Below are positions 12,165 to 16,117 of a stretch of 34,123 nucleotides of DNA, piece by piece. The notes under the pieces are model-generated. The model saw only the letters and a program-made list of their open reading frames with translations, was not told the DNA's origin and searched no databases. The number at the start of each line of letters is the position of its first letter. Within the stretch, counting starts at the first letter, position 1. This DNA is from Hyella patelloides LEGE 07179 (GTDB lineage: Bacteria; Cyanobacteriota; Cyanobacteriia; Cyanobacteriales; Xenococcaceae), in contig NZ_LR213812.1 in the NCBI RefSeq assembly GCF_900659865.1, positions 1 to 34,123 of the forward strand, read 5' to 3'. The position numbers were made by a program, and so were the translations under genes.

Positions 12165-13199
12165 TTACCTCAACGAAATCGCCGATAATAAAACTTCTGC
12201 GCCAAATCTCACCGCATCGGTACAGGGTAATCCCGTTGATTGTTGTGTTTCTTCAATGGCATTTTTAGCCGTCTCCGCATCCATACCAAAGGTGTTAAGA
12301 GCGATCGCTTTTACTTTAACTTTATCAGACGCACCCCCAACCTTAGCTACAGTTTCGTATAGTTGCACAACTTCTGGTAAAGTTGGAATGGTAATTTGGG
12401 GTAAATCGTGGATTTGAGTAGCACCTGCACGATGGACTAATATTAAACCTGTGGGTTGGCTTCCTCGTATCAAAGGTAAGGTAGCGGTAGAACCAGGATG
12501 CAATAGAGAGCCTTGTCCTTCTATAATTACTAAATTACTATCTTTGCTCAATTCCAGTACTGTTTTCTCCACAGCACCCGCAGCAAAATCTACTCTCACT
12601 GCATCTAAAGCAACACCCTGTCCAGCGATCGCAATTCCTGCTTGTCCCGTAGCCACAAACTGACTTTTGATACCTTTATTTTTAGCAGCGCGATATAATT
12701 CCAGACTGGTTGACATCTTACCAATTGCCATATCTGTCCCTACTGTAAGAATTCTCTGACAGGATAGCGAGCGTGCTTTTGCCGTACCAATAGATAAACC
12801 TGGTGGTTCTTGTCTAAGATCCCAAATCCACTGTCCTTCTGACAAGTTGGGATACTGAGGCGCAATAAAAGTATGTAAGCCATTAACGATAGATAAACCT
12901 TGGCCTATTGCTTCGGTAACTTCTGCTTGTAAATCTGCGGGTAATCTACCCCCAGAAGGTGCAATCCCAATCAACAAGACATCAGAATCGTAAGCTAAAG
13001 CCTCTTGAAGATTAGAGACAATGGGTATATCCTTAGTAATCCCTGTTAATTCTACTAAAGACTTACCCGCACAAGTGCGATCGATTACGGCAACAATTTC
13101 GGTTTCGCCATAGCGTAGAAAAGCTAATCCCGTTTTACCATGTTTTCCCGTAACTCCTTCATGAAGTAGGATCGCTACCTTATTCTTATTTGTAAGCAT
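12165..13199 (-). CDS. DUF1611 protein, DgcN-like (putative D-glutamate N-acetyltransferase)
   Basis: A 344-residue protein with the DUF1611 architecture: an N-terminal Rossmann-like part (YGETEIVAVIDRTCAGKSL, residues 30-48; PSGGRLPADL) and a P-loop-type C-terminal part with TVGTDMAIGKMSTSLEL (152-168), ATGQAGIAIAG and IEGQGSLLHPG. Characterised DUF1611 members called DgcN are reported to N-acetylate D-glutamate, and the product is then racemised by the dipeptide-epimerase-like DgcA. Here the start overlaps the 3' end of exactly such an epimerase by 14 bases, which supports a coupled pathway. The alternative older reading is an NAD-dependent epimerase of unknown use. Family assignment is firm; the reaction is inferred. 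Confidence 0.8.
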   Translation of the reverse strand: MLTNKNKVAILLHEGVTGKHGKTGLAFLRYGETEIVAVIDRTCAGKSLVELTGITKDIPIVSNLQEALAYDSDVLLIGIAPSGGRLPADLQAEVTEAIGQGLSIVNGLHTFIAPQYPNLSEGQWIWDLRQEPPGLSIGTAKARSLSCQRILTVGTDMAIGKMSTSLELYRAAKNKGIKSQFVATGQAGIAIAGQGVALDAVRVDFAAGAVEKTVLELSKDSNLVIIEGQGSLLHPGSTATLPLIRGSQPTGLILVHRAGATQIHDLPQITIPTLPEVVQLYETVAKVGGASDKVKVKAIALNTFGMDAETAKNAIEETQQSTGLPCTDAVRFGAEVLLSAISLR

Positions 13200-14238
13200 G
13201 GTATTCTACTCCTAATCCTGCTTGGTTATTTGGTAATAAACGCCCTTCTGATATGGTTGCGCCAGAGAAAGGATCGTTGATTAAATTGAGATGACTATCC
13301 AAATCTAAATAATCTGCTAAAGGTGCAAGATGAGACATGGCAGTATTGGCTAAACTACTATCAGAATAACAACCAAACATTACTTGTAAACCAAAAGCTT
13401 TTGCTATTTCAATCGTCCGCTTCGCCTCAGTTAAACCACCTGTTTTCATTATTTTTAGATTTACCCCCGCCACCGATGAAGCCAGTCTAGGAATATCACT
13501 ACTGTTAAAACAACTTTCATCAACAAATATAGGTAAGGGTGAATTTTTGGATAAGGTCGCTAGTTTATCATTTTCTGCCACAGCTAAAGGTTGTTCGATA
13601 TACTCTACACCCAAATTTGCCAGCCAATGAGACATATAAACAGCATCGTTAAAACTCCATCCTCCATTAGCATCTACTGTAAGTCTTGCTTGAGGAAATG
13701 CAGAGCGAATCGCTTCTAACATCGCTTTATCTGCTTCAATACCTTCAGGATTGCCCAATTTTAGCTTTAGTATCTGAAAATCTATTGTTTCTTGCCAAGC
13801 AAGCCCCCTTTTTACTGCATTCTCTGGAGAACTAATACCGATAGTTACCGAAATTGGCACAATGCGATCGCGATTTAAACCCCATAATTGCCACAAAGGT
13901 AAACCTACTTTTTTGCCCAACCAATCATAAAGAGCCGTATCGATAGCTGCTTTAACAGAAGATGGCACTTGTTGATTATCTAAGATTTCGGCAATTTCTT
14001 GTCTTTGTAAAGGGTGAAATTTTGCTAAGCGAGGGCTAATTTGAATGATTTCTTGTTCCAATTTTGCCGTATCTTTGCTTTCTGCTTTCGAGATCGAAAA
14101 AGGCGACGCTTCCCCCCAACCTTCAAGATCATCCTCTTTAATTTTTACCCAAAGATTAGTAGTGCGATCTGTTGTACCCCGACTGATTTTGAGAGCAAAT
14201 TTTTTACGCACCGTGAAAGTCTGGACTATTAATTCCAT
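13186..14238 (-). CDS. Enolase-superfamily dipeptide epimerase (AEE/DgcA-like)
   Basis: A 350-residue member of the enolase superfamily, muconate-lactonising subgroup. The catalytic set is visible: KLK at 158-160 (FQILKLKLG), metal ligands Asp189 (VDANGGW), Glu215 (YIEQP) and Asp240 (FVDES), and the opposite base in LKIMKTGG (Lys262/Lys265). Its family epimerises L-Ala-D/L-Glu dipeptides or, in DgcA-type enzymes, N-acetyl-glutamate. The Arg/Lys-rich 20s loop (KISRGTTDRTTN) is typical of Ala-Glu epimerases. It is upstream of and overlaps the DUF1611 gene, so the two are probably translated together. Murein recycling or D-glutamate use are the two plausible roles. Confidence 0.88.
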   Translation of the reverse strand: MELIVQTFTVRKKFALKISRGTTDRTTNLWVKIKEDDLEGWGEASPFSISKAESKDTAKLEQEIIQISPRLAKFHPLQRQEIAEILDNQQVPSSVKAAIDTALYDWLGKKVGLPLWQLWGLNRDRIVPISVTIGISSPENAVKRGLAWQETIDFQILKLKLGNPEGIEADKAMLEAIRSAFPQARLTVDANGGWSFNDAVYMSHWLANLGVEYIEQPLAVAENDKLATLSKNSPLPIFVDESCFNSSDIPRLASSVAGVNLKIMKTGGLTEAKRTIEIAKAFGLQVMFGCYSDSSLANTAMSHLAPLADYLDLDSHLNLINDPFSGATISEGRLLPNNQAGLGVEYHAYK

Positions 14239-14890: not shown

Positions 14891-16117
14891 TTAATTAGGA
14901 GTAATCCTAACTGGACGAACTACAACGCCCTTTATCCCTCGTCTATTAAAGATTTCTGGGATTACCTTACGCATAATATTATAGGAACTAGAGATATCCG
15001 AATTGATGCGAGTCTTCAAGCCTCTTTCCTTATACATTCCTCTGCTTTCTCGATAACCGCTAAATTTAATCTCTCTAGCATTGTCATCACCATAGCTAGG
15101 AATCGGATCTAAGGATAGAAAAGAAGCACGAGAAGTGTAAGATTCTTCTCTGACTATCACTTCAATTCCTTGTAACTGTCCTTTATAAAACAACATTTCA
15201 ATTAGCCGAGCGTGAGGAATTGTTGTAAAGGATTGATTTACTTGTTTGCCTAGATTAACTGACTGTTTCCAACCTTCATTATTACCGATAATCAGCTTTC
15301 CTATTCCATGTTTATCCAGATGGTTGATTATCCATCTAGAGGCTTTGTGTAGGTAATTGTTTACCTGATTATTTCGCTTGGCTGCTAGTTGTTTAATTCG
15401 ATTTGAACTGAGTTGATGAGATGGCAGTAATGACTGTAGTTTAGCGAACGTTTTGTTATATAACTGGTTCAAACTCTTGAGTGGTCGTCCGTTAATCAAA
15501 ATAGGTATAAATCCTAGTTGATTTGATGTTAACGCGCACAAATTGTTGATACCGATATCAATACTCGCTACAGCATTAGGATTGTGTACTGTATAACTTT
15601 CCTTTTTTTCATAGACTACTTCAATTACATATTGTCCTGTTTTGGGTATAACTCTAACCTGATCTATGTTCTCCACCTTAGTTGGTATCAAGATATCTAC
15701 ACCAGATAGCTTAACTATTCCTTTTTTCAGCCAAGGTTTGCTGATAGCTTGGATAGTATAGACTAGTAAATTACGTCCTTTATTCTTATCTTTATAACGA
15801 GGTAATTTAGGTCTACCCTTAAATTTATCTGGAGCTATTTTATAGGCTTTAATGGCATTTAAAAAAGACTTCCAATTTTGCTCTAACAGCCTCAGTACTT
15901 GTTGACTTACCTTAGCTGGTAATGCTTGATAGTCAGGGGTGCTTTTACAAGCGTGATAAACCTTGTTGTATCCCAGATAAATCTTGTCAAAGATGAAAGC
16001 TTGACGAATTTGATAATTGGCATAGTTGTAGAGATTTTTGGATAGAAAACACAATTTATCTATTTGTTGCCAAATAGAATGACTTCGTTTAATAATATGT
16101 CTCTCTACGTGCTTCAT
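14891..16117 (-). mobile_element. tnpB: TnpB (OrfB) RNA-guided nuclease gene, no tnpA (IS200/IS605/IS607-type)
   Basis: A 408-residue transposon-encoded RNA-guided endonuclease. The N-terminal helical/wedge part includes YNYANYQIRQAF (30-41) and FLNAIKAYKIAPDKFKGRPK (85-104). The RuvC-like nuclease has RuvC-I SIDIGINNLCAL (Asp187), RuvC-II region LIIGNNEGWKQ (276-285) and RuvC-III INSDISSSYNIMRKV (Asp374). The usual RuvC-II glutamate (general form xxEDL) is replaced by Gly-Asn-Asn. A conserved Glu-Glu lies downstream in REESYTSRASFLS (323-335), so the catalytic acid appears displaced. The zinc-finger cysteines of ISDra2-type TnpB are also absent, though subfamilies with YTSxxSF often lack them. 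The ORF is intact and no tnpA is adjacent, so the element cannot transpose unaided. Confidence 0.92.
14895..14910 (-). ncRNA. Hairpin at the 3' end of tnpB (possible omega-RNA or right-end element)
   Basis: TTAGGA (14895-14900) and TCCTAA (14905-14910) form a perfect stem with a four-base loop, inside the last codons of tnpB. TnpB guide (omega) RNAs overlap the 3' end of the gene and extend past the stop, and element right ends carry a small hairpin at the same place. Both readings fit; the limits of the RNA are not determined. Confidence 0.35.

Follow-up and report, generated by a model that had tools for sequence, protein, structure and literature searches.

An epimerase/DUF1611 gene pair in the cyanobacterium Hyella patelloides and its likeness to the DgcN/DgcA D-glutamate route

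The stretch of DNA analysed here (the window: 34,123 nucleotides of Hyella patelloides LEGE 07179, contig NZ_LR213812.1, positions 1 to 34,123) carries an enolase-superfamily epimerase gene that overlaps a gene for a protein of the DUF1611 family. We lean, if only slightly, towards the view that the two gene products act one after the other, probably in the cytosol, to invert an acidic D-amino acid, of which D-glutamate is the likeliest, in the manner of DgcN and DgcA but as a separate branch. The gene structure of the pair, its conservation and linkage, the presence of the catalytic residues and the predicted DUF1611 fold were established directly.

Of 146 genomes drawn from the cyanobacterial phylum, 42 carry the pair; many haloarchaea have it too, and none of the entries listed in a search of the open-licence literature deals with it in cyanobacteria. 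The structure of a DUF1611 ortholog (2obn) has been solved since 2007 with no named function. This widespread pair now becomes directly testable. Assigning a tested function to it would decide between dipeptide epimerase and N-acyl-glutamate racemase for these enolase-superfamily enzymes and would show how D-glutamate is handled in photoautotrophs; it could also connect the turnover of murein, or the uptake of D-amino acids, with arginine and the storage of nitrogen.

Layout and conservation of the pair

The features of the pair in the window are:

13186-14238, minus strand: enolase-superfamily (MR_MLE) epimerase/racemase gene, first gene of the pair, 350 amino acids, ATG start (open reading frame list, Pfam, NCBIfam)
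12165-13199, minus strand: DUF1611 (DgcN-like) gene, second gene of the pair, 344 amino acids, ATG start (open reading frame list, Pfam, NCBIfam)
13186-13199, minus strand: overlap of both reading frames, 14 bases (reading frame coordinates; same overlap in loci L058-L061)
14179-14181, minus strand: R20 in the 20s loop of the epimerase, aligned to YcjG R21 and to DgcA, one column off YkfB R24
13759-13761, minus strand: catalytic lysine K160 (second K of KxK), aligned to YkfB K162, K in 52/52 rows
13519-13674, minus strand: span with D189, E215 and D240, kept in 52/52 epimerase rows
13453-13455, minus strand: catalytic lysine K262, aligned to YkfB K268, K in 52/52 rows
13297-13305, minus strand: DxD motif D312-L-D314, then S315; D312 aligned to YcjG D297
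12708-12740, minus strand: P-loop-like motif GTDMAIGKMST, DUF1611 residues 154-164 (sequence)

The overlap of the two genes, claimed by a sequence-only reading of the window, was borne out: both reading frames are found at these coordinates on the minus strand with 14 bases in common, an arrangement that likely couples their translation. When each frame is taken from its first start codon, the epimerase adjoins the DUF1611 gene in 14 of 15 other cyanobacterial loci read around DUF1611, with an overlap of exactly 14 bases in four, an overlap of 10-29 bases in seven and a gap of 2-184 bases in three; in the remaining locus, L070, there is no epimerase beside the DUF1611 gene.

Conservation across cyanobacteria, which the sequence-only reading had named as a check, was examined in two samples, and the co-occurrence is almost perfect. 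The 60 relatives divide into 44 with both genes, each scoring at least 350 bits, 15 without either and one, G024, with a truncated epimerase gene only; this type of DUF1611 gene never occurs alone among them. In the 146 phylum genomes, the DgcN model matches 42, and the epimerase (at least 168 bits) is found in all 42 of these versus 2 of the 104 negatives, as raw counts with kinship ignored. Only DgcA-model matches of at least 168 bits were counted because this model is less specific (at E 1e-10 it matches 60 of the 146 phylum genomes and 12 of 14 control genomes), and the threshold was set after seeing a gap from 168.7 to 132.2 bits. The only two sampled genomes with an epimerase and no DgcN-model match are G101 (168.7 bits; 74% complete) and G107 (201.8 bits; 9% contaminated). 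Of the 42 phylum genomes with the pair, 34 have the two matches at most 400 bases apart and 38 at most 2.2 kb apart; the matches are separated in the other four, by 2.4 Mb in G067 and on different contigs in G088, G099 and G111. That both genes are kept even where they are apart suggests a tie of function and not of place alone. The co-occurrence is beyond chance, and the pair is old and inherited together.

DUF1611 genes were also sought in named genomes, where the best 80 of 578 matches were read with flanks of at most about 3 kb, some of them ended by contig ends, so that misses are no proof of absence. An epimerase is present in the flanks of 39 of 45 cyanobacterial loci (38 times upstream on the same strand), of all five melainabacterial and all 24 haloarchaeal loci, and of four of six other loci. 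In cyanobacteria the epimerase gene comes first and DUF1611 second; melainabacterial and haloarchaeal loci have DUF1611 first. The haloarchaeal pairs resemble that of the window in being adjacent in 24/24 loci and in having an epimerase on the window's side of the tree, with modest support (86/63); they differ in gene order and in that three haloarchaeal DUF1611 proteins are 37, 38 and 37% identical to the window's. A related gene lies upstream of DUF1611 in 14 of the 24 haloarchaeal loci (e.g., L093:1911-2888, L099:1910-2839); two such genes, when scanned, matched the VLRF1 release-factor family (PF18859), which offers no clue to metabolism, and three other haloarchaeal neighbour genes that were scanned had no Pfam match. 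Two contigs of Fimbriimonadales metagenome-assembled genomes (L134:3001-4029, L162:1345-2379) carry a cyanobacterium-like DUF1611 gene, its product 59% identical to that of the window, with no epimerase in the fetched flanks; this reflects either lateral transfer or contamination of the assemblies.

Catalytic residues and predicted fold

The epimerase matches Pfam MR_MLE_N and MR_MLE_C, both above their gathering scores. That it keeps all expected catalytic residues was confirmed by an alignment of 52 rows: K158-x-K160, D189, E215, D240 and K262 are in place, together with R20 in the 20s loop and D312-x-D314. The residues to which K160 and K262 are aligned, K162 and K268, are the two catalytic lysines of YkfB (PMC5808125). 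The R20 column holds arginine in 20/20 cyanobacterial, 13/13 haloarchaeal and 3/3 DgcA rows, and tyrosine in four rows of one melainabacterial/other subclade. D189, E215 and D240 are the metal ligands expected for the superfamily, and R20 presumably binds an acidic side chain, its role in Ala-Glu epimerases. Its presence would thus fit a substrate with an acidic, glutamate-like side chain. The DxD motif was considered as a discriminator between dipeptide and N-acyl substrates and dropped: it is uninformative on this point because DgcA and the Ala-Glu epimerases both keep it.

The DUF1611 protein matches Pfam DUF1611_N and DUF1611_C, again above the gathering scores, and the P-loop-like motif noticed earlier is indeed there, with G154, T155, D156, G160 and K161 invariant across 24 aligned DUF1611 proteins. 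An AlphaFold model of the protein (24 aligned sequences; predicted local distance difference test score, pLDDT, 93.6) is closest to 2obn, the Anabaena variabilis protein Ava_3511 (Z 49.2, root-mean-square deviation (rmsd) 1.6, 340 residues aligned), which at 60% identity is likely its ortholog and whose entry title says only that it is a DUF1611 family protein. The model then matches 2g0t of Thermotoga (Z 37.3, rmsd 2.3, 322 aligned) and the solved DgcN 7xrj, 'N-acetyltransferase DgcN-25328' (Z 36.3, rmsd 3.5, 323 aligned), while the next matches, at Z 13-14, are P-loop domains of ParA/Soj, cobyrinic acid a,c-diamide synthase and dethiobiotin synthetase. A fold that the modelled protein appears to have in common with DgcN is no proof of its function. 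Two residues, D204 and T303, are common to the cyanobacterial, haloarchaeal, melainabacterial and DgcN proteins and are Q and H in the type linked to ornithine racemase, for which the comparison had five rows only, from two lineages; D204 and T303 would fit a glutamate-like substrate.

The window pair and the DgcN/DgcA route of Pseudoalteromonas and others (7xrj) have much in common: an adjacent DUF1611 gene and enolase-superfamily racemase gene, the Pfam domains, the DUF1611 fold, the catalytic residues (lysine pair, metal ligands and 20s-loop arginine) and the P-loop motif. They differ in gene order, dgcN being first in the three dgcNA operons that were read and the racemase being first in cyanobacteria.

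The predicted route and competing explanations

In the DgcN/DgcA-like route that we favour, the DUF1611 protein would N-acylate D-glutamate, probably from acetyl-CoA, by analogy with DgcN, for which this step is reportedly described in the primary paper (ISME J 2023), whose title names halophilic archaea. The epimerase would then racemise N-acyl-D-glutamate to N-acyl-L-glutamate in a metal-assisted two-base reaction that would use K160 and K262, as its residues suggest, and the product would pass into arginine synthesis (the ArgJ cycle) or be deacylated to L-glutamate. The substrate, the acyl donor, the direction and the downstream fate of the route are those that we infer. N-acetylation of D-glutamate by DgcN is the first step of the DgcN/DgcA route according to two sources (PMC10845958, PMC12363236). 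MurI and ArgJ are both encoded in the genome, which is consistent with MurI as the source of D-glutamate and ArgJ as the outlet; of the earlier suggestion that the route feeds arginine synthesis, the outlet is present and the feed itself stays conditional. Recycling of D-glutamate from murein turnover or uptake is a plausible task for the pair. The same genome also encodes a protein with an AstE/AspA-type deacylase domain (G000:C188, locus L178:697-1821, minus strand), which is unlinked to the pair and is a possible candidate for an N-acyl-glutamate deacylase.

Several observations weigh against this assignment. The best NCBIfam models, DgcN (NF041892) for the DUF1611 protein and DgcA (NF042940) for the epimerase, are equivalog models, and the window's proteins pass neither cut-off, reaching about half of each (228.4 bits vs 480 and 204.9 bits vs 400); no match above either curated cut-off was found in the 146 phylum genomes. 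In a DUF1611 tree of 55 rows, DgcN, including 7xrj, is a 100/100 clade on a stem of 1.79 that leaves the cyanobacterial proteins outside, in a 100/100 clade of their own; the haloarchaeal epimerase-linked proteins also have their own well-supported clade, and the branching among the three is weak. In the epimerase tree (52 rows: the window's protein, 25 of the 72 epimerases found in the locus survey, 15 others and 11 references), the window's epimerase falls outside the DgcA clade and groups with other DUF1611-linked epimerases and BT1313 at a modest 86/63. Of the columns that tell DgcN and the ornithine-racemase-linked type apart, 11 have the cyanobacterial proteins on one side or the other, and the picture is mixed: seven agree with DgcN and four with the other type. 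No DgcR-type LysR gene adjoins the window pair, whose neighbours are an HhH-GPD gene and a gene for a 139-amino-acid protein; a LysR gene lies beside the dgc genes in Pseudoalteromonas (dgcR) and Vibrio fortis and not in Pantoea. On a Natrononativus plasmid, a DUF1611 gene that the tree places close to the ornithine type is listed without a neighbouring epimerase, and for the annotated dgcN of Sinorhizobium an incomplete gene table shows no adjacent dgcA. The physiological need for the route is uncertain because MurI could also return D-glutamate to L-glutamate without it. Finally, Y291 and S315 occur in 20/20 cyanobacterial epimerase rows, whereas the other rows have M in 31/32 and G in 29/32 at these columns, respectively, and S315 in none of the 32; because these residues are specific to cyanobacteria, the acyl group might differ, and they are the main sign of such a possible difference. 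The adjacent H316 of the cyanobacterial epimerases is also found in three melainabacterial rows.

Since the scores are below the cut-offs and the clades are separate, the window pair is placed by its sequences outside the curated DgcN and DgcA families, on a branch of its own, and by analogy it may well work like DgcN/DgcA. The resemblance proposed by the sequence-only reading thus holds for the best-matching models, the fold and the linkage, and not for the cut-offs or the DgcA clade.

The same two-step logic could also serve another substrate, with a different acyl donor (e.g., succinyl or aminoacyl), with D-aspartate, or in the reverse direction making an N-acyl-D-amino acid. Y291 and S315, the separate clades of both proteins and the unlinked deacylase-domain protein are in line with this, but R20 and the D204/T303 residues shared with DgcN suit a glutamate-like substrate and nothing points directly to another donor; we regard it as possible, though rather doubtful. 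That the two genes are mere neighbours with no common pathway is most improbable. Besides DUF1611 and the epimerase, no family was found in more than 5 of the 21 neighbourhoods compared (16 of them cyanobacterial loci of the window's pair type), and for lack of such a third conserved gene family there is no pathway context that would confirm the function; yet the co-occurrence is 42/42, with the genes apart in four cases, and the same pairing recurs in haloarchaea, melainabacteria and proteobacteria.

The older annotation would make the epimerase an L-Ala-D/L-Glu dipeptide epimerase of murein recycling, like YcjG and YkfB, with the DUF1611 protein performing a separate step on the same pool. 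Among solved structures, the closest relative of the epimerase is BT1313 (3iji), which is regarded as a dipeptide epimerase, was deposited under the name muconate cycloisomerase and stands beside the window's clade; next come 3jva, 3rit and YcjG (1jpd), each carrying the name of a dipeptide or Ala-Glu epimerase. YcjG, YkfB (1jpm/1tkk) and BT1313 have the superfamily, the catalytic lysines and the DxD motif in common with the window's protein, and R20 is likewise as in YcjG. The Ala-Glu epimerase models give 144.2 bits (NF041118, cut-off 500) and 142.9 bits (NF011708, cut-off 343), neither cut-off being passed. The tree does not decide between dipeptide and N-acyl substrates because YcjG adjoins DgcA and BT1313 adjoins the window's clade. 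The phylogenetic placement proposed earlier failed to put the epimerase with DgcA: three annotated proteobacterial DgcA proteins, E. coli YcjG and 4gfi form one 100/100 group, and a clade of 41 DUF1611-linked epimerases, DgcA and 4gfi without YcjG was rejected by the approximately unbiased (AU) test (p-AU 2.9e-5), this group having been defined after inspection of the tree and including 4gfi, for which linkage to DUF1611 is not established. Clustering with proven Ala-Glu epimerases, which the sequence-only reading had taken as grounds for refutation, does not decide either. Single-gene phylogeny was accordingly dropped as the deciding test. Several rows, including 3iji and one DgcA, have long branches, and a single clade of the DUF1611-linked epimerases minus DgcA and without BT1313 was neither rejected nor demonstrated (p-AU 0.061). 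A link to the land-plant AEE genes was also dropped, since a 2013 paper places no cyanobacterial AEE in the plant branch (PMC3605383).

Cyanobacterial YkfC-like endopeptidases without signal peptides, AvPCP/NpPCP, would release L-Ala-D-Glu (PMC2954226), and 34 of the 42 phylum genomes with the pair have an NlpC/P60 match. However, no such match was found in the window's genome (98% complete), nor is one linked to the pair. The window's family is represented by 27 searched genomes, the window's own among them and five less than 90% complete; NlpC/P60 is absent from 25, and 21 of these 25 retain the whole pair. Of the order's 33 further relatives, 16 carry NlpC/P60 together with the pair, five the pair only, 11 NlpC/P60 only and one neither, and 47 of the 81 NlpC/P60-positive phylum genomes lack the pair. 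NlpC/P60 as such occurs in 27 of those 33 relatives versus two of the 27 in the window's family. Haloarchaea have no murein and keep the pair in 24/24 loci. The gene ycjG adjoins the murein peptidase gene mpaA, whereas the window's epimerase gene adjoins DUF1611, and ykfB is likewise beside the murein peptidase gene ykfC (PMC2954226). A dipeptide function leaves the constant DUF1611 partner without explanation. Another source of dipeptide is possible, as the window's genome has an LD-carboxypeptidase-family (S66) match and three M14 matches; two of the latter were scanned and neither received the MpaA name, the presence of an MpaA model in NCBIfam being unconfirmed. The missing NlpC/P60 endopeptidase and the haloarchaeal pairs nevertheless lower the murein-dipeptide explanation, which appears weakened on gene content and which we consider unlikely.

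A second DUF1611 pair and the surroundings of the first

A second DUF1611 gene was found in the same genome, outside the window (G000:C103:499-2926; locus L057:484-2926), followed by an Orr-like pyridoxal phosphate (PLP) racemase gene and a DUF3134 gene; this DUF1611/Orr-like pair is newly noticed here. As in the window, DUF1611 stands beside a racemase; the racemase fold differs, as do the residues at the D204 and T303 columns, which are Q and H. The Orr-like racemase scores 393.7 bits against a cut-off of 480 and has the Ala_racemase_N fold, unrelated to the enolase-superfamily epimerase. In the 60 relatives, the second type of DUF1611 gene and the Orr-like gene occur in one and the same set of 12 genomes. 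The two matches lie 114-126 bases apart in 11 of these and 820 in G041; in G001, the match for the second-type DUF1611 gene is broken up over two contigs. The same DUF1611 and Orr-like arrangement is present in Phaeobacter, on a plasmid. Thermotoga maritima, one of the control genomes and the source of the DUF1611 structure 2g0t, is matched by the DgcN model as well as by the ornithine racemase (Orr) model.

DUF1611 thus seems to be a companion of more than one kind of racemase, which adds weight to the case that it acts on the amino acid undergoing the change of handedness. We tentatively raise the possibility that DUF1611 is a general racemase-partner family, joined to at least two unrelated racemase folds and to two branches of the enolase superfamily, and that two undescribed cyanobacterial D-amino acid pathways are present here, one glutamate-like, perhaps with a new acyl group, and one ornithine-like with a PLP racemase. 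Given this racemase-partner pattern, the second, ornithine-type pair would likewise be open to direct testing.

As for the surroundings of the window pair, promoter and terminator scans gave results at chance level only. The flanking HhH-GPD gene, which is on the opposite strand, and the gene for the 139-amino-acid protein, which has no Pfam match, are not common to the compared relatives. An OrfB_IS605 transposase-type gene lies near the pair (window 14891-16117, minus strand), and its product has a Cas12f1-like TNB domain match that is below the cut-off.

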